DNA of 20,868 nt, taken from the IMG/VR virus record IMGVR_UViG_3300021511_000031, positions 1 through 20,868 of that record. The stretch is one strand, 5' to 3'. How positions within the stretch are numbered: position 1 is the first letter of the stretch; each line of letters opens with the position of its first letter. The stretch is from a virus. The notes below the pieces were generated by a model. It saw only the letters and a program-made list of their open reading frames with translations, searched no databases and had not been told where the DNA came from. A program made the position numbers and the translations under genes. Positions 247 to 17,224 of the stretch are shown here, piece after piece.

Positions 247-720
247 TTATATATCATTATTTTCAATTGTTAATATGTCCTCTTGTTTAATTTGTTTTAC
301 TTCAACTGCTTTTTCGGATAATATTTTAATTGATTTTTCAGCTTGTATCATTATATTAGCAATAGCAGCCATTCCTTGTTTTAAATCTTTTAATTCTTCA
401 GTTAATTTTAATATTGTATTTGATTGTTTGTCCTGTGTTTCTTGTATACCTCTATTACTTGCTTCATAATGTGGTAAATAACGTATCCACCATATAGGTA
501 AATATTCTTTTTCTTTTTTTAATTCAGGTGTTGCTAATGGCATTCCTGTTTTTTCATCCCTTCGTTTTTCATAAGTAACTTCAATTGTTAATGCTTCTTG
601 TATTGCTTCTGATACTATTTGTTTAATTTCTTCTTTGGTTTTTTTAGTCATTGTTACTTCAATTGTTAATGCTTCTTGTATTGCTTCTGATACTATTTGT
701 TTAATTTCTTCTTTGGTCAT
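247..720 (-). CDS. Coiled-coil protein with duplicated N-terminal repeat, unknown function
   Basis: This 157-residue protein follows the three fibre-like genes. I chose the ATG at 720 (MTKEEIKQ) over a longer frame to 786 because a good ribosome binding site (aaggggaag) sits just before it, in the 17-base gap after the upstream stop. The N-terminus is a 26-residue unit, TKEEIKQIVSEAIQEALTIEVT, present twice in tandem and predicted helical. A linker contains a tryptophan pair (LPIWWIRYLPHYEASNRG). The C-terminal third is a likely coiled coil with heptad-like hydrophobics (ILKLTEELKDLKQGMAAIANIM). There is no signal peptide, and the membrane potential is weak. By position it could be a tail-fibre assembly or attachment factor, but that is inference from neighbours only. 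The duplication is described separately. Confidence 0.7.
   Translation of the reverse strand: MTKEEIKQIVSEAIQEALTIEVTMTKKTKEEIKQIVSEAIQEALTIEVTYEKRRDEKTGMPLATPELKKEKEYLPIWWIRYLPHYEASNRGIQETQDKQSNTILKLTEELKDLKQGMAAIANIMIQAEKSIKILSEKAVEVKQIKQEDILTIENNDI
578..717 (-). repeat. 78-bp tandem duplication inside a gene
   Basis: Bases 578-639 and 656-717 are identical over 62 bases at a period of 78 bases (26 codons). The duplication stays in frame and doubles an N-terminal helical unit. The lack of any base difference suggests a recent event or ongoing expansion and contraction. Confidence 0.9.
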
Positions 721-737
721 TTTTATCTTCCCCTTTT

Positions 738-1376
738 TTATATATCTGGATGTTGTAATGTTCCAACACTCGCTAATGGTCTCCATGATAAACCATGATT
801 ATGTGATGAATTACTACCAACAGATGCATGTGTATGTGCCCCTCCTATGTTTGTATTTTTAGTTACATGACCAGCAGAGGTTTGAGATGTTGTCCCATAA
901 TGATAACTACCACCAGTAGTTACTAATATAGCGTGTGTATGTGCTCCTGTTTCACCGTGGTCATGAGTAGGTATTTCATCTTCAACTAAAGTATGGTTTG
1001 ATGTTGTCCACGTTCCAGCTTGTGTTCCCCCCGAAACATTGTAATCATTTGAACCACCCTTTAGTGCTAAAACTACATCATAAACAGTAGTATCAATTTT
1101 CCAACCATTTCTCGCAATTTCTTCAAAAATCCATATCTTGGTATTAGTATTTCCATACATAACACCTAACCAATTATCATTAGCAACATTTCTTATCTTT
1201 AATATTTTCTTTGTAGTATCAAACCAAGGCATACCGGCAACATTTGTTGGTAGTGGTATTGAAGTACTTCCAGAAAACATTGAACGTAAACATTCAAAGT
1301 TATTTTCAAATTTTTCAAGGTCTAGGTACCCCTCATTAGTAGTTATATATGAATTAATTGTATAATTTTGTGCCAT
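738..1376 (-). CDS. Fibre-like tail protein, paralogue 1 (HxH-containing C-terminus)
   Basis: This 212-residue protein is one of three tandem paralogues. The shared N-terminal part (about residues 1-75) starts MAQNYTIN and includes ENNFECLRSM and GMPWFDTTKKILKIRN. A central part diverges, and the C-terminal part is Gly/Ser/Thr-rich with four HxH motifs in two pairs (THDHG and AHTHA; AHTHA and SHNHG), ending WRPLASVGTLQHPDI. Paired HxH motifs are known in phage fibre tips such as T4 gp37, where they coordinate metal along a trimer axis, and in tail-collar-like proteins. A receptor-binding or fibre-tip role is inferred from that and from position after the J-like tail-tip gene. The start is supported by GAGG seven bases upstream. 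A 92-bp tract is nearly identical to paralogue 3. Confidence 0.75.
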   Translation of the reverse strand: MAQNYTINSYITTNEGYLDLEKFENNFECLRSMFSGSTSIPLPTNVAGMPWFDTTKKILKIRNVANDNWLGVMYGNTNTKIWIFEEIARNGWKIDTTVYDVVLALKGGSNDYNVSGGTQAGTWTTSNHTLVEDEIPTHDHGETGAHTHAILVTTGGSYHYGTTSQTSAGHVTKNTNIGGAHTHASVGSNSSHNHGLSWRPLASVGTLQHPDI

Positions 1377-1386
1377 TTATTACCTC

Positions 1387-2031
1387 TTATAAGTTAGGAT
1401 ATTGCAAAGTCCCCACTGCTGCTTTTAATCTATATGTTGTTCCACCATGACTATGTGCATCATTACTTGATTTACCATAAGCATTATGTGTATGATTCCC
1501 CTGTGAATCTGTTATGTGATACCCACCTTGTGAATAACTATTAAATCCTCTTGAAGTTGTTTGACCGCTACCAACATTATAATAACAATCCATAGTATGT
1601 GTATGGTCTGATGATGCCCCGTGGTCATGAGCAGGTATTTGTGATAAAGATAATGTACAACCCGGCATTGTCCATGTTCCTGCAACAGAACCACCAGTGG
1701 TATATGTTGACCCACCTTTTAGTACTAAAACTACATCTGTTGGTGGTGAAGGGTCTAATATCCAACCATCTCCCGCTGAATTAGCATAAACCCATAATTT
1801 AGTATTTGAGTTACCATACATAACACCAAGCCATTTAGAATTCAACGAGTTTCGTATTTTCAATAATTTATTTGTAGTATCAAACCATGGCATACCAGGA
1901 ATAGCATTAGCGGGAGCATCACTCCCTGACATCATTGAACGTAAGCATTCAAAGTTATTCTCCATATTTTGTAAATCAGTATTACCAATATGTGATGATT
2001 GATATGAATTAATTTTATAGTTTTGTGCCAT
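1387..2031 (-). CDS. Fibre-like tail protein, paralogue 2 (HxH-containing C-terminus)
   Basis: This 214-residue protein has the same plan as its neighbours: MAQNYKIN start, ENNFECLRSMMSG, GMPWFDTTNKLLKIRN, a WLGVMYGN segment shared with paralogue 1, then PGCTLSLSQIPAHDHG shared with paralogue 3. The C-terminal Gly/Ser/His-rich part has four HxH motifs (HDH, HTH, HTH, HSH) and ends LKAAVGTLQYPNL. The start ATG lies one base from the preceding gene's stop, with gaaggga as the ribosome binding site. Bases 1627-1680 differ at one position from 2267-2320 in paralogue 3, while the 5' tract shared by paralogues 1 and 3 is diverged here, so the three genes are mosaics. A fibre or receptor-binding role is inferred, as for paralogue 1. 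Confidence 0.75.
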   Translation of the reverse strand: MAQNYKINSYQSSHIGNTDLQNMENNFECLRSMMSGSDAPANAIPGMPWFDTTNKLLKIRNSLNSKWLGVMYGNSNTKLWVYANSAGDGWILDPSPPTDVVLVLKGGSTYTTGGSVAGTWTMPGCTLSLSQIPAHDHGASSDHTHTMDCYYNVGSGQTTSRGFNSYSQGGYHITDSQGNHTHNAYGKSSNDAHSHGGTTYRLKAAVGTLQYPNL

Positions 2032-2032
2032 A

Positions 2033-2686
2033 TTATATAATTCCCTTCATATGCTGTCTTGTCCCCACTGCTGCATAAGGTCTCCAATTATTTCCATGAT
2101 TATGTGATTGAGAAAGTCCATCTGAATCATGTGTATGGACTCCACTATTCATTAATACTGATTGAGTATGTGTATTGGTTCCTTTTGAATATGCAGCATA
2201 TGCAGTATAAGTATTAGAAGCATAAACACTTACACCATGTATATGTTCCCCAGCTTCACCATGTGTATGAGCAGGTATTTGTGATATAGATAATGTACAA
2301 CCCGGCATTGTCCATGTTCCAGATTCATTACCACCATCAATATCATAATCTAATCCACCAGTAATTGTTTTTAATGCCAATAATCTATCACCCACAGCGG
2401 TATCTATTGACCATCCATCTTCTTCTGTATTAGAATACATCCACACTTTAGTTGATAATTCAGCAAGAAATACCCCCATCCATGCACTATTAGCATTATT
2501 ACGAATTCTCAAACCTTTTGTGGTAGTATCAAACCAAGGCATACCGGCAACATTTGTTGGTAGTGATATTGAAGTACTTCCAGAAAACATTGAACGTAAA
2601 CATTCAAAGTTATTCTCCATACTCTGTAATTCTGTTTTTACAGTACCAGTTGGTGTAATACAATTTATTGTATAGTTTTGTGCCAT
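2033..2686 (-). CDS. Fibre-like tail protein, paralogue 3 (HxH-containing C-terminus)
   Basis: This 217-residue first member of the tandem trio sits immediately after the J-like gene. It has the N-terminal block MAQNYTIN, ENNFECLRSMFSG and GMPWFDTTTKGLRIRN, then WMGVFLAELSTKVW, PGCTLSISQIPAHTHG and a C-terminal part with HTH, HIH, HTH and HNH motifs, ending WRPYAAVGTRQHMKGII. AAGGA precedes the ATG. It shares near-identical DNA with paralogue 1 in its 5' half and with paralogue 2 in its middle, as expected if gene conversion or unequal recombination has shuffled it. The His-pair arrangement supports a metal-stabilised trimeric fibre tip; this is a family-level inference, not a demonstrated activity. 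Confidence 0.75.
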   Translation of the reverse strand: MAQNYTINCITPTGTVKTELQSMENNFECLRSMFSGSTSISLPTNVAGMPWFDTTTKGLRIRNNANSAWMGVFLAELSTKVWMYSNTEEDGWSIDTAVGDRLLALKTITGGLDYDIDGGNESGTWTMPGCTLSISQIPAHTHGEAGEHIHGVSVYASNTYTAYAAYSKGTNTHTQSVLMNSGVHTHDSDGLSQSHNHGNNWRPYAAVGTRQHMKGII

Positions 2687-5919: not shown

Positions 5920-6213
5920 TTAATTATTTTCCATATATATTTGATTTATATTTTTACTAGAGTGAACCCAATTATGACAAGTTTTACATAATGTTGAACC
6001 ATTCCATTCTTCATATCTTAAAGAAGGAAAATCTTGCCATGAATATATATGATGAGCGTTTAATTCTCTGCACCCATTATCACATATTTGACATGTATAA
6101 TTATCTCTTTTAAACACAGACTTCCTCCAATTAATATTTTCACCAGTAAGCTGTGGATGCTTTTTACCTTTATTCCAAGCTGGTTTTGTTCTTTTATAAA
6201 TACCTTTTGGCAT
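5920..6213 (-). CDS. Free-standing HNH endonuclease
   Basis: This 97-residue protein has an HNH fold signature: CQIC (Cys41, Cys44), the AHH pair (His54-His55), Asn71 in EWNGSTLC, then CKTCHNWVH (Cys76, Cys79, His80, His84). The N-terminal PAWNKGKKHPQLTGENINW is a NUMOD3-like DNA-binding stretch seen in phage homing endonucleases. It lies in the gap between the DUF2163 gene and the J-like gene, where lambda-like modules carry a K-type gene, with only two bases on each side. It is most likely a selfish endonuclease gene inserted in the tail module, although small HNH proteins can also assist DNA packaging. The ribosome binding site is GAGGG, inside a GC-rich patch. Confidence 0.9.
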   Translation of the reverse strand: MPKGIYKRTKPAWNKGKKHPQLTGENINWRKSVFKRDNYTCQICDNGCRELNAHHIYSWQDFPSLRYEEWNGSTLCKTCHNWVHSSKNINQIYMENN

Positions 6214-7549: not shown

Positions 7550-9333
7550 TATCTTGATACCCTCCTAATATTTGCATTAAGAGCAGAGTTTCCTCGTTGC
7601 ATTTGTTCATTCATTACTGTTGTAACTGCACTTGGGTTCTGTCTGACAAAATCGACAAATGATTTACTATCCATTGCCATTATATTATAATTGATTTGTG
7701 TTGGTTGTTGTCCACTACCCTGTGCCTTAACTCCGAGTTCACCAGATGATGTTTTAGATAGAGGAAGGATTGCTTCTGGTCCTGCTTCACCCATAAGACC
7801 TTGTTGAAATGATGTTGGTTTAGAAACAATACTATTTGTGAATACACCACCTTTAGCATATTTAGGTTCTGTCTTTGCTATAGTAGCTACATTTGCTAAA
7901 CCCGTAGCAGTAATAATTGCAGCCATTGCTATTCCTGCTGGTCCTGAATATTCAGCTAGTGCATCATTAGCAGCCTTATAAGTTTTAACTGTTGCTTCTG
8001 CTATTGACATTGCTTTCTTTAACTTAAATGTTTTCTTTTCATTTTCTTCACTATCAGAACCAATTCTATCTAACATAGAACCAAAATCACCAAATAAATT
8101 ACCCATTTGACCTAAAAACTGTTGTTGTGTTTGAAACTTCTTTTTCGCAATATTAGCTGCATCTGCTGCTGCTTTATCTTCTATTTTTTTTTCTTTATCT
8201 GTTACAGATTGAATTAATTCAATTCTTTTTTGATTGTATTCATTTTGATCATTGAGATTATTCATCCATGCATCACTATCTTTTTGTGCTAATGCTATAT
8301 GATGTTCATCTTTCATTTGTAGTTCATAAGCATGCATTGCTCTTAAAGCATCTTTGTTCTTTTCAAATTCAGATTCATATGGATTTTTATCTGTTGTAGT
8401 GTCTTCACCCCCAGATGGAATATATCCTTTATAACTGGGACCTCGTTTAGCGGATTCTTCATCAATATATTTTTCAGGTGGACCAAGAAGATATTTATTA
8501 TATTCTTTTCTTAATTCAACCAAATCTTTTAATCTTTTATATGTTGTTTTACTTGGATCTAAAGCAATTAAAAAGGCTTTAGTATAATAATAAATTTTTG
8601 CTGATAAATCTGCCATTTCTTTTGATATTTTTCTTATACCTTCAGCAAATGCATCCCAATCAGCATCATTTAATGTTTGAACTAATTGTGCAAATACAGT
8701 TACTTTAAGAGTTTCTAATGAAGCTCTTAATTTCTCCATATTATCTGTATATTTGGCAAAATTATTTGCTTGTTCAGTTGTTACTGAAGCAGCAGTTTCA
8801 CTTAAATTATTTCTTAAACCAGGTAACATTTTATTCAATTCAGCTGCTGTCATGCCAAATATTTCCATTTGAATAGCTGCTCTTTTTACAGGATTTTCAA
8901 TTTTCTGTGTTGCTTCTGCTAATCTTAAAAATTGTTCTTCAGGGTCTAATTTTGATAATGCTTCTACATCTATATTTAGTTCTTCAAATGCTTTCTTAGC
9001 TGCACCTAAACCTCTTGTAGCAAGACCTATTCTACGTTGCATTCTTTCAATTGAACCAGTAACAATAGTAAATGATACACCAGATAAGTTAGCAATGTGC
9101 TCCATTTTAGATAAAGTTTCTACTGATACACCAAGTTTTAAATTTAACTTATGAAATTTATCACCAAGTTTAACTGTATCATTCATTAATTTAGCAAAAC
9201 CAGCAACAACAGCACCAAGAGCTACAGGACCAGCTATCTTTTTAAGGGCTGAAGTTGTATTATCGCTGAATTTCTTAACAACCTTACTACCTTTATCCTT
9301 AGCTACAATATTTACTTTTACATCTTTAGGCAT
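7549..9333 (-). CDS. Tail tape measure protein
   Basis: The 594-residue tape measure protein occupies the tail lumen and sets tail length. Evidence: position after the frameshifting chaperone gene, a basic N-terminus (MPKDVKVNIVAKDKGSK) followed by the hydrophobic stretch IAGPVALGAVVAGFAKLM, long helical regions, an Ala/Lys-rich coiled coil near residues 355-405, a second hydrophobic segment (GPAGIAMAAIITATGLANVATIA), and the typical C-terminal QQGLMGEAGPEAILPL. At about 0.15 nm per residue this predicts a tail near 90 nm, shorter than lambda. The ATG overlaps the stop of the frameshift product (taATG), and its ribosome binding site (GAGGA) is within that upstream frame. Confidence 0.92.
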   Translation of the reverse strand: MPKDVKVNIVAKDKGSKVVKKFSDNTTSALKKIAGPVALGAVVAGFAKLMNDTVKLGDKFHKLNLKLGVSVETLSKMEHIANLSGVSFTIVTGSIERMQRRIGLATRGLGAAKKAFEELNIDVEALSKLDPEEQFLRLAEATQKIENPVKRAAIQMEIFGMTAAELNKMLPGLRNNLSETAASVTTEQANNFAKYTDNMEKLRASLETLKVTVFAQLVQTLNDADWDAFAEGIRKISKEMADLSAKIYYYTKAFLIALDPSKTTYKRLKDLVELRKEYNKYLLGPPEKYIDEESAKRGPSYKGYIPSGGEDTTTDKNPYESEFEKNKDALRAMHAYELQMKDEHHIALAQKDSDAWMNNLNDQNEYNQKRIELIQSVTDKEKKIEDKAAADAANIAKKKFQTQQQFLGQMGNLFGDFGSMLDRIGSDSEENEKKTFKLKKAMSIAEATVKTYKAANDALAEYSGPAGIAMAAIITATGLANVATIAKTEPKYAKGGVFTNSIVSKPTSFQQGLMGEAGPEAILPLSKTSSGELGVKAQGSGQQPTQINYNIMAMDSKSFVDFVRQNPSAVTTVMNEQMQRGNSALNANIRRVSR

Positions 9334-9982
9334 TAGTCTTTTTTCCTCATTGATTGAATTGCTGCTTGGAGTGATACTACTATCTTCTGGGTTATATCTT
9401 TTCTGTGTTCATTTGGGACATCTTCAATATCAAGAACAAGTTTTATAGCATCTGCTTGAATAGAATCTTCTTTCAATAACATAGTTGAATATTTTTCTAT
9501 TAAACCAAATACATAATAATTATCTGGAAGTATTTCTACATATCCACACTTCTTACAATCGGGGATTCTATCAGATGGATTTTTTCTATTACTGCTTATC
9601 TTAATACACTGCTCACAGGATACTTTATTTTTATCATATACCCACGTGAAGTAATCTACTAGGTTTTTTTTTCAATAATCTTATCTTTATCTTCAGCTGA
9701 TTTATTTATAACAAACATCATAATACTTTCAGAATAATCAAATAAAAATTTCTTATTTTCAGTGTTGCATTCTAATGGTTTGTCATCTTCACCATTAATA
9801 CCCTTCCAATCTACAACACAGTAATCAAATATCTTGAAAAACGATTCTACTTGATCATTCTTAGCAATTGATGTTCTTATAACGTTATGAGATACAGGAA
9901 AAGGTCTTATCTTAAACGATACACCCTTAGCTTCTTTGAACTCGATCCATTTAGCTTCTATTAATGATTTATTTATTTTCAT
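9333..9982 (-). CDS. Tail assembly chaperone, -1 frameshift product (gpGT-like, two CxxC knuckles)
   Basis: The zero frame (start 9982) stops at 9659, but a second frame is open from the slippery run down to 9333 and ends exactly at the tape-measure start. Slipping back one base at 9665-9671 gives 106 + 110 = 216 residues. The added part begins NLVDYFTWVYDKNK, carries CEQC and CKKC 16 residues apart (a possible zinc-binding pair), and ends with an amphipathic helix IVVSLQAAIQSMRKKD. It has no ATG until residue 62 of its own length, so separate initiation would discard most of it. Known G/GT pairs in siphophages work as tape-measure chaperones through this arrangement. The frame is read directly from the sequence; use of frameshifting is inferred from family precedent. 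Confidence 0.8.
9659..9982 (-). CDS. Tail assembly chaperone, zero-frame product (gpG-like)
   Basis: This 107-residue protein lies between the tail tube and the tape measure, the standard place of lambda gpG-type chaperones. It starts MKINKSLIEAKWIEFKEAKG with AAAGGAG upstream, contains VSFKIRPFPVSHN and FDYCVVDWKGINGED, and ends IIEKKT at an amber stop directly after nine adenines. Most ribosomes should make this form, and a minority the longer frameshifted form. The family is short and poorly conserved, so the assignment rests on size, acidic and helical character, location and the slippery 3' end. Confidence 0.82.
   Translation of the reverse strand: MKINKSLIEAKWIEFKEAKGVSFKIRPFPVSHNVIRTSIAKNDQVESFFKIFDYCVVDWKGINGEDDKPLECNTENKKFLFDYSESIMMFVINKSAEDKDKIIEKKT
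9664..9672 (-). promoter_or_regulatory. A9 slippery run for -1 programmed frameshifting
   Basis: On the minus strand the codons read gaa aaa aaa acc tag. The heptamer A AAA AAA (9671-9665) allows both tRNAs to re-pair after a one-base backward slip. The new frame then reads aac cta gta and stays open for 110 codons. Confidence 0.8.
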
Positions 9983-10003: not shown

Positions 10004-10417
10004 TTATGATTTATGAACTGCACCATGAAATCTAAAGTCAACAGAAATTTTTATAATGTCATTTGCTGTTGCTGTTACTGCAAAGTTTGTAAAATAAACT
10101 CCAGCATCAGCATCACTACCTATATCAGATGACCAATAAGTTGTATCATCTGTATATAATTTAAAATTAGTAATCTTTGTTCCATTTAAAACAGCACTCT
10201 CAATTACTATTTGACCTGTTGAATCATCTGGATCTAATAGACCACTCAATGATCCACCTGCAGCCTTTATGCCCTGACCTGCAACTACCGACCAAGAGTC
10301 CCCAAATGTTGCTTCTTCAAGCAATGGTGATTCAATAGTTAAACTATAATCAACCATCTTTAGAATAGTATGACTTCCTAACACACATTTTGCTGATTTG
10401 CCTGTGTATACACTCAT
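10004..10417 (-). CDS. Major tail tube protein
   Basis: This 137-residue protein is placed just before the tail chaperone pair, as tail tube genes are in siphophages. The sequence is beta-rich and low in complex motifs: MSVYTGKSAKCVLGSHTILKM, ATFGDSWSVVAGQGIKAAGG, SGLLDPDDSTGQIVIESAVLNG and a C-terminal strand series ending DIIKISVDFRFHGAVHKS. Similar plans (FGDSW..GQ, then a GSLSGLLD turn) occur in small tail tube proteins that stack as hexamers around the tape measure. AGGAG precedes the start. It is probably one of the most abundant late products. Assignment is by size, composition and order. Confidence 0.75.
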   Translation of the reverse strand: MSVYTGKSAKCVLGSHTILKMVDYSLTIESPLLEEATFGDSWSVVAGQGIKAAGGSLSGLLDPDDSTGQIVIESAVLNGTKITNFKLYTDDTTYWSSDIGSDADAGVYFTNFAVTATANDIIKISVDFRFHGAVHKS

Positions 10418-12257: not shown

Positions 12258-12935
12258 TTAAGATCGTTTCTTTCTTTTAATCCACGCTTTTTTAACTCCT
12301 TCACTTATCTTTTTTCTAATATCTTTATCTTTAGCAGGATTATTATCACCGGTCATGTCTGGTCGTTTTATTCCTTTATTTATATCTTTACATGATTTTC
12401 TAATATTTGCTTTATGTTCTTCAGAAAGAATCCCACCTTTTTTCGCCTCAGTCATTCTTCTTCTAGTTTTCTTTGTAAATGGTTTTCGTTTCTTGCCTTT
12501 TAAATTACTGCTTATTCTCTTTATTCTTTTATCTGTTTCTTTAGTAAGTCCCTTAGACCAAGATGGTTTCGTTTTCGGATTTTCTTTGAAATAATCCAAC
12601 ATAACATTACTCATTTTCTCACTCCAACCTTCTGGAGGGTTCCATGTATAATTACTATCTCCGCCTGTTGTAAGATTATAACCATTCTTTCCAAATGTAT
12701 CATAATATCCAATATAGAATACTTCTAATTGATTTAACTTTTCTCTACTATCAGTTGTATCTATAACTTCCCATTTGAAATTTTCAGATCCATATACATT
12801 TATAGCTTTATGAAAATAAAATTTTGGTTTTTTTGAATCATGTAAATGCTCTCTTATTCTATATTTCAATGGGCCTATTGTTTGTCCAATATAACTCTTT
12901 CCGTTTAACAAGTTTGTTGCCTTGTAAATTATCAT
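12258..12935 (-). CDS. GIY-YIG homing endonuclease with NUMOD-type DNA-binding tail
   Basis: This 225-residue protein is a free-standing phage endonuclease. The N-terminal GIY-YIG nuclease spans residues 1-92: IYKATNLLNGKSYIGQT gives the two signature halves, Arg26 or Arg28 is the likely catalytic Arg, Glu71 (NQLEVFYIG) the metal-binding Glu, and YNLTTGG closes the domain. The C-terminal half is very basic with NUMOD3-like units (KPSWSKGLTKETDKRI, KKRKPFTKKTRRRMTEA, SEEHKANIRKS, GDNNPAKDKDIRKKISEG). It interrupts the head operon between capsid and connector. The ribosome binding site (GAGAGG) lies in the loop of a small ctaat/attag stem directly before the ATG, which may limit its translation. 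It is likely a selfish element targeting related phages lacking it. Confidence 0.93.
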   Translation of the reverse strand: MIIYKATNLLNGKSYIGQTIGPLKYRIREHLHDSKKPKFYFHKAINVYGSENFKWEVIDTTDSREKLNQLEVFYIGYYDTFGKNGYNLTTGGDSNYTWNPPEGWSEKMSNVMLDYFKENPKTKPSWSKGLTKETDKRIKRISSNLKGKKRKPFTKKTRRRMTEAKKGGILSEEHKANIRKSCKDINKGIKRPDMTGDNNPAKDKDIRKKISEGVKKAWIKRKKRS

Positions 12936-15232: not shown

Positions 15233-17224
15233 TTATTCAATATAAGGCGCTACCGCACAACGACAATTTATTATGTTTCCAGGATCCCCACCAGGATCGC
15301 CTGGGTATTCTAAACCATTTGAAAAAGTTTGATCCATATCTATAGTTTCGCCATCTACAGCAGCATGTTGAGGTCTGGTTCCACCTACCCAAGTCTTCTT
15401 ACTAACTCCCTCTTTTTCATATTCTTTCATTGTAGTTTGAGATACCATACTCGCTGTCTCTGTCCTTGCGATTGTTTTGGCTCTCTTCCCTGCAAAGTTA
15501 TATACATTCTTAATACGTTTAGTTAGTTGAGCTAATGTCTCACCTTCATTTGCACTATCAAATATCTCAATCTTAATCTGATTCCATACTGTATTATTTA
15601 TATCTGTTATCTTAGATAGCCGACTATTAATAATAGTACTATCAATCATATCAGGTAGATCTATATCTTTATAACTCTTTCCTAATCTATCCTTAACTAA
15701 TTTAATACCTACTTTATAGGCCTCATTATAAATTGGTTTAGTATATTTCTTTAGCGTTTTGTTCTCTTTATCCCATATTTTTATCAAATCATTAAGTATT
15801 CCGTACTGTTGGGTGTTCATATTCTTAGAATTCCTAATGACCGCTAATACAGTTTTGCCTTGTTCATAAAAGAATCTCTTAATTTTCGAGTAGAATAATT
15901 TATCAACTACCTTAACTCTTCTTAAATACAACTGTCTATATTTTTTATTTGCTCTTGAAACCTTAAGTTCTATACTCTTTGTTTCAATATCACCAACATC
16001 TTTTGTAGATTTAGGTTCATCATCTAATGACATCCCACGAGGTACTAAGTTAATAGGAATTAAATCTTCGTCATCGTTTGAATATTTCATATCCAAAGAT
16101 AGTCTGTCATTTATTTCATTTCTTGTATAACCAAGATGTAATAAATTCTGTGCTGATTCAAGCGTAGTTTTAAGATCACCCTTCAACTCTTCTATTTGAC
16201 TTAGATTGAATTTACATTTATATCCTGGTAAATATTGTAGGAATAATTCAGCATTCAACTTTTCTTGTATTCTAATCAACTGTGGTTTAAGAGTTAGTGT
16301 CCATATCTGACGCATACCCTCTTTAGCATTTGCTCTATTAACGTCATCTGATATTCCCATAGCTGTTTTATTAACACCCAATGTAACTAGGATTCTATCT
16401 CGTATATCTTTACGTCCTTCCAAATATTCCATATCCTTTTGAGACATTGCAGTATCCACATAGTCCATACCAGCAGGCAATCCAGCTATCTTACCAACAT
16501 TATTAATACCTCTATGAGAATTGTTCCAATCAATAACTGCTTTCTTTAATTCAGCTGGTGATATTTCAGATGCCTTATCATTCTTTAGATAACCACTAAC
16601 TCTGGCAAAGTTTTCAAAGAACTTTTTATTATATTTGGCAGCATCCGCATCAGCAGCATATTCCATGATGACTGTATCAATAGGTGACAGTCCTCTTAAT
16701 CCTTTTGTATTGGGAAGTTTAAAAAATATAACTTCATCGACACTCATAGGAATTTTATAATTGAATATCCAACTACCTATTTGACCAGTCGCCTTATCTT
16801 TCTCATGTTTCATGAACTTAGGATTAAGCACATATATATCTTGTATCTTCCCATATTCATTATTATTGATATACCAGAATGACTCTCCATAATTATATAG
16901 ATAGATCATTGTCAATTCCCACAGTTCAAAGTTAGACATATAAGGGTTGGGTCGAATGAACATATTATACATTTCATTTTCTGGTGGTAATGGATCCTCA
17001 CCCTTGTATATATCTAAAGGAACTTGTGCCACATTTTGTGCAAGGAGGGATATTGCTCTGTTAATTACATAGTTAGTAGAAAACGGATCTTGCTTCTCTG
17101 TACTATATGTCTCCATTCTATTTCCAACTACAGCATAAAGTTCTTCGAATCCCTTCTCTACTACTTGATCTGTGTTTGACTCTTTGGTCCACAGGCCTGT
17201 TTCTGATAATTTATAATTATCCAT
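15233..17224 (-). CDS. Portal protein fused to MuF-like head morphogenesis domain
   Basis: At 663 residues it is much longer than a simple HK97-type portal (about 400). Residues 1-410 are portal: PFSTNYVINRAISLLAQNVAQVPLDIY, FELWELTMIYLYNYGESFWYI, VDEVIFFKLPNTKGLRGLSPI, and KDMEYLEGRKDIRDRILVTLGVNKTAMG. The C-terminal 120 residues are MuF-like: KRAKTIARTETASMVSQ, WVGGTRPQHAAVDGETI, and NIINCRCAVAPYIE with the typical CRC ending. Phages usually encode these as neighbours; here they form one chain, so each of the probably twelve portal subunits would carry a MuF domain inside the head. GGAG lies upstream of the start. Confidence 0.93.
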   Translation of the reverse strand: MDNYKLSETGLWTKESNTDQVVEKGFEELYAVVGNRMETYSTEKQDPFSTNYVINRAISLLAQNVAQVPLDIYKGEDPLPPENEMYNMFIRPNPYMSNFELWELTMIYLYNYGESFWYINNNEYGKIQDIYVLNPKFMKHEKDKATGQIGSWIFNYKIPMSVDEVIFFKLPNTKGLRGLSPIDTVIMEYAADADAAKYNKKFFENFARVSGYLKNDKASEISPAELKKAVIDWNNSHRGINNVGKIAGLPAGMDYVDTAMSQKDMEYLEGRKDIRDRILVTLGVNKTAMGISDDVNRANAKEGMRQIWTLTLKPQLIRIQEKLNAELFLQYLPGYKCKFNLSQIEELKGDLKTTLESAQNLLHLGYTRNEINDRLSLDMKYSNDDEDLIPINLVPRGMSLDDEPKSTKDVGDIETKSIELKVSRANKKYRQLYLRRVKVVDKLFYSKIKRFFYEQGKTVLAVIRNSKNMNTQQYGILNDLIKIWDKENKTLKKYTKPIYNEAYKVGIKLVKDRLGKSYKDIDLPDMIDSTIINSRLSKITDINNTVWNQIKIEIFDSANEGETLAQLTKRIKNVYNFAGKRAKTIARTETASMVSQTTMKEYEKEGVSKKTWVGGTRPQHAAVDGETIDMDQTFSNGLEYPGDPGGDPGNIINCRCAVAPYIE

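Follow-up and report, generated by a model that had tools for sequence, protein, structure and literature searches.

A putative G/GT tail assembly chaperone gene pair with a CxxC...CxxC T half in an uncultivated long-tailed phage

Tail genes of the phage fragment

We analysed the virus record IMGVR_UViG_3300021511_000031 over its whole length of 20,868 bases (hereafter referred to as the window). The window is a low-GC (31%) fragment of an uncultivated long-tailed phage, and its structural genes are encoded on the minus strand. The head part follows the order terminase, portal, protease, capsid, head-tail connectors and tail terminator, and the tail part the order tail tube, G/T pair, tape measure, DUF2460, DUF2163, tail tip hub and fibres, with some of these assignments made by position and length. 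The G/T pair (9982..9333), which is the subject of this study, sits between the tail tube and tape-measure genes (Table 1). Besides its PHROG match, the tail tube protein matches Pfam Phage_tail_2 at an E-value of 0.013, which lies under the Pfam cut-off.

Table 1. Positions of the G/T pair, its sequence elements and the flanking genes in the window.
Feature	Position	Strand	Basis
Tail tube (major tail) protein, 137 aa	10004..10417	-	phrog_10528 major tail protein, E 2e-4
G half, tail assembly chaperone, zero frame, 107 aa	9659..9982	-	phrog_313, E 7.2e-10
A9 run (T9 on the plus strand)	9664..9672	-	read directly
-1 slippery heptamer A AAA AAA, in phase, 3 nt before the zero-frame stop	9665..9671	-	within the A9 run
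T half, -1 frame, 112 codons (9671..9336) plus TAA (9335..9333)	9333..9671	-	open frame, codon usage, relatives
Predicted stem-loop, candidate stimulator, starting 3 nt past the heptamer	9602..9661	-	folding
First CxxC (CEQC), T residues 19-22	9606..9617	-	invariant in alignment A6, 24 T halves
Second CxxC (CKKC), T residues 39-42	9546..9557	-	invariant in alignment A6, 24 T halves
Tape-measure protein, 594 aa	7549..9333	-	phrog_9483 tail length tape measure, E 4.3e-36

Elsewhere in the window, a single 663-aa ORF (15233-17224, minus strand) combines a portal with a Mu F-like head morphogenesis domain (Phage_portal, 54-371; Phage_Mu_F, 548-658). A GIY-YIG endonuclease gene (12258-12935, minus strand; Pfam GIY-YIG, E 2.8e-05), probably encoding a homing endonuclease, lies between the capsid and head-tail adaptor genes, and a free-standing HNH endonuclease gene (5920-6213, minus strand; Pfam HNH, E 8.5e-06) lies between the DUF2163 and tail hub genes. 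The HNH gene looks like an insertion: in L035 (IMGVR_UViG_3300022540_000165), the nearest relative that we found, the hub match starts 21 nt after the DUF2163 match. Three paralogous genes in tandem (738-2686, minus strand), about 51% identical and sharing the start MAQNY.IN and NNFECLRSM, probably encode the tail fibres. The 179-aa ORF at 247-786 (minus strand) has an internally duplicated segment, TKEEIKQIVSEAIQEALTIEVT.

Slip site and second reading frame

The G ORF ends with ATT GAA AAA AAA ACC TAG, in which the zero-frame TAG occupies 9661..9659. Behind the heptamer, the -1 frame reads KKNLVDYF...MRKKD, with 110 codons following two slipped Lys codons, and its TAA overlaps the tape-measure ATG at 9333. 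None of 20,000 first-order Markov sequences built from the T region stayed open for 112 codons, and the longest of the 1313 stop-free runs in the +1 and -1 shadow frames of the window genes spanned 73 codons. The codon usage of the T frame was like that of the window genes (+0.09 per codon; the remaining two sense frames scored -0.14 and -0.11). An earlier sequence-only reading had proposed a classic G/GT arrangement here, which is borne out by the gene order tube–G–T–tape measure, the phrog_313 match of the G half, the in-phase heptamer and the open -1 frame.

Since the sole start-initiated ORF in the T frame has only 49 aa (9482..9333), a start-based gene caller would miss the T domain; the same reading was right to describe a 110-codon frame without an upstream start. 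The 49-aa ORF begins with ATG, and T could in principle be a separate protein made from this internal start, the slip remaining unused. We regard this as very improbable, because the ORF contains neither of the two CxxC pairs of the T half, and because conservation among relatives, the Cys part included, reaches back to the slip site.

Direct searches for such relatives failed because the proteins diverge quickly. In viral_contigs, none was found with the window T half, capsid or tape-measure protein, and in the phage collection the fused protein, the G half and the DUF2460 protein gave nothing beyond one chance-level match. With an alignment of the three tandem fibre paralogues (A1), the same tail module was located at 22 IMG/VR loci, a DUF2460 alignment (A5) added further loci, and a T alignment (A3) yielded 19, some on contigs already found. 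The T half was not a selection criterion for loci obtained via the fibres or DUF2460, whereas selection through A3 depended in part on the first CxxC pair and the KKL start, the second pair playing no role. Neither A1 nor alignment A4 detected relatives in genome_contigs, and alignment A2 was too divergent for scanning. Searching with the large terminase subunit led to mosaic phages with other tails. One contig (L009:1-567) carries a terminase large subunit fragment that is 76% identical to that of the window, while its other genes resemble a different, contractile-tailed phage; this is mosaicism.

The relatives allowed the slip site to be compared across loci. In every examined locus whose T half has the four cysteines described in the next section (the quartet loci), an in-phase heptamer lies exactly at the T start, the G frame is open upstream, and the G stop follows 0 to 84 nt past the heptamer. 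Only three of them depart from the heptamer A AAA AAC: the window and L047 have A AAA AAA within an A9 run, and L035 has G GGA AAT. Pelagibacter phage HTVC026P (L030) has an A9 run as well; at more than 25 related loci, an in-phase A AAA AAC stands in place of the long A run. L035, whose G and T halves are 47% and 35% identical to those of the window, differs from it not only in its heptamer but also in having no A9 run and no clear stem-loop. Relatives with the same gene order thus possess both an in-phase heptamer and a -1 frame. The A9 run, which had been taken for the slippery element, does contain the heptamer in phase, but the run itself is not conserved, A AAA AAC being the usual form.

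These comparisons bear on two other accounts of the separate frames. Runs of a single base are prone to errors, and adding one base to the A9 run, or removing two, would join the frames into one uninterrupted ORF, as expected if the real gene had been broken by a sequencing or assembly error. Such an error is hardly credible: L035, with G GGA AAT and a stop directly after it, uses the same -1 frame, and the frames are still separate at the more than 25 other loci with A6C. The A9 run is also long enough for slippage by RNA polymerase, and its recurrence in L047 and L030 would suit a switch of frame made during transcription rather than by the ribosome. We consider this unlikely, because most relatives have A6C only and L035 has neither run, the arrangement being kept all the same. 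For this reason, transcriptional slippage may add to frameshifting at the window locus but cannot be the shared mechanism. L035 and the short-run loci rule out a shared homopolymer error and leave ribosomal frameshifting as the simplest common mechanism.

Judged from these sequences, the G/T pair is a programmed frameshift of the lambda G/GT type. The lambda slip site is G GGA AAG, as against A AAA AAA here, and the cysteine quartet is a feature of the window T half that further sets it apart from lambda. The lambda gpG/gpGT pair is likewise encoded between the tube and tape-measure genes, and its shift, also by -1, falls close to where G ends (PMC5009743).

The predicted stem-loop downstream of the heptamer was evaluated by folding. 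Positions 9601-9663 of the window fold at -13.8 kcal/mol with a z-score of -2.26, and a slightly different stretch gives -1.90. Across 30 loci, which are partly related to one another and so not fully independent, the 65 nt 3′ of the site were more stable than dinucleotide shuffles (mean z -1.57), with 13 loci below -2, whereas only 1 to 3 of the 30 fell below -2 at four control offsets. The stem-loop was not significant in L035 (z +1.0) and in several others of the 30 loci folded.

Cysteine quartet of the T half

The two CxxC pairs of the T half are separated by 16 residues, exactly as the sequence-only reading had stated. In alignment A6, which comprises 24 T halves with 16 to 35% identity to that of the window, full invariance is confined to columns K2, L4, C19, C22, C39 and C42. 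Two of these, K2 and L4, are located at the slip site and had also been used in a search pattern. The quartet CxxC...CxxC occurs in the window and in L034, L035, L038, L040, L041, L043, L045, L046, L047, L084, L097 and L098, none of them having been picked by T; L035 agrees with the window in gene order as well. In L089 the quartet has a variant spacing. Five loci of the same layout (L039, L044, L052, L053 and L096) have T domains without this or the other four-cysteine type described below. Therefore, the quartet is common in this tail module but not universal. The metal knuckle that had been suggested from the two pairs is in keeping with the invariance of the four cysteines in the aligned T halves, although conservation does not extend to these several relatives of the same layout.

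CxxC pairs that lie 8 to 20 residues apart are the usual pattern of zinc ribbons and zinc knuckles. From the cysteine pattern alone, we infer zinc as the metal; the quartet would most likely be a structural zinc site of the knuckle type. The window T half had no match to a known zinc-ribbon family (best PF16503, E 0.86), and L035 weakly matched the zinc-ribbon family PF11023 (E 0.004, below the cut-off). A four-cysteine site is also compatible with an iron-sulfur cluster or another metal, and the quartet might serve as a redox switch; L098 weakly matches the Fe-S domain PF05484 (E 0.0025, below the cut-off). The spacing of the pairs, which is that of zinc sites, and the match of L035 to PF11023 argue against these alternatives, which together seem rather unlikely, and we favour a zinc knuckle.

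We compared the T half with known families. That of the window reached no Pfam or PHROG family, DUF1799 (PF08809) included; DUF1799 was reached by the relatives L040, L041, L043, L045, L046 and L065. With everything up to the last Cys removed, window-type T halves aligned by hhalign with canonical T halves (SECphi18, phiES15 and two Pseudomonas phages) over 68 columns, with an E-value of 2.6e-6 for this single comparison. The DUF1799 T halves of Escherichia phage SECphi18, Cronobacter phage phiES15 and Pseudomonas phage AUS531phi share with the window T half the C-terminal region after the PEN motif and, where a slip site was found, follow A AAA AAC or G GGA AAC in the -1 frame. Unlike the window T half, those examined from cultured phages have no CxxC pairs. 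At the level of sequence similarity, the T half outside its Cys part is a distant relative of the DUF1799 T domains, and the Cys site most likely replaces the segment before the PEN motif of the canonical T halves. Two quartet T halves were used as queries against 50,697 phage records. They matched 955 and 506 of these, in no case reaching 80% coverage of the query, and among the matches listed, most start after the Cys part.

AlphaFold2 models of the window T half had pLDDT values of 85 and 89. When viral models were searched by fold, most of the best-ranked named matches were chaperones of the tape measure or of tail assembly, at weak E-values no better than 0.01. The top match was the tape-measure chaperone of Serratia phage Scapp, for which its annotators give the joined frameshift product; a heptamer scan of its G end gave no in-phase site. 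Acinetobacter phage Loki, also matched by fold, carries A AAA AAC, and its T half lacks CxxC. A fold search of the PDB gave no convincing match to the T half, although a solved relative may exist. Searching the PDB by sequence returned multihaem cytochromes only, which we dismissed as a match of cysteine composition.

A second type of T half with four cysteines is present at L048:3131-3445, L091:2574-2912, L100:4423-4737 and L003:5412-5753, the last being Microcystis phage Mae-JY22. Like the window T half, it lies in a -1 frame and contains four invariant cysteines; it follows A AAA AAC and has a KKL start. The cysteine spacing differs, being C-x2-C-x10-C-x18-C, and the C-terminal part is unrelated. 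This type was also matched in Alteromonas phage P24 and in Rhizobium phages.

The frameshift is textbook, and what seems new is the Cys quartet in T domains. In the open-access literature searched, we found no account of zinc, CxxC or a Cys quartet in tail assembly chaperones or T domains. T domains are small, divergent and hidden in a second frame, and are without a solved structure as far as we searched. A conserved metal site would provide a recognisable T-domain signature and a handle on frameshift halves missed in uncultivated phages, and would also offer a simple mutational test of the role of T in tail assembly.

Proposed roles of the two halves

Taken together, the evidence makes us confident, if short of certain, that this locus holds the tail assembly chaperone genes of an uncultivated long-tailed phage, a pair that encodes G and a frameshifted GT with a CxxC...CxxC T part. 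The slip itself and the partners of each half we infer as follows. Most ribosomes would stop at the TAG at 9661 and produce the 107-aa G protein, while a minority would slip back by one base on A AAA AAA (9671..9665), probably aided by the downstream stem-loop, and produce a 216-aa GT protein. If the lambda model holds, the tape-measure protein would be coated by G, both free and within GT, and the T part would recruit tail tube subunits, so that tube polymerisation starts. Here, as in the relatives, the first part of T, between the first helix and the conserved Glu/Asp-Asn motif (PEN/PDN), would be built around CxxC...CxxC, most likely as a structural zinc knuckle.

The assignment of partners follows studies of lambda, in which the tape measure is bound by G, free or as part of GT, and T attaches to the major tail protein to start tube polymerisation (PMC5009743; PMC4493119). 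Because T has this partner in lambda, the suggestion of the sequence-only reading that the T-like domain binds the tape measure is unlikely; in lambda that role belongs to the G part (PMC5009743; PMC4493119). The presumed partner of the window T half, by analogy, is the tail tube protein encoded at 10004..10417. A more general proposal, in which the T part that frameshifting adds to many tail chaperones would serve as a zinc-dependent adaptor to the tail tube subunit, is speculative and unlikely; if it were true, zinc or redox state could influence the onset of tube polymerisation.

The distribution of the T types among the relatives offers a further comparison. L048 and L091 share a G cluster with L040 and its kin, but have their T and tube clusters in common with L003 and L100. 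On these four loci and single-linkage clusters, the T type appears to follow the tube type rather than the G type, which fits the lambda model.
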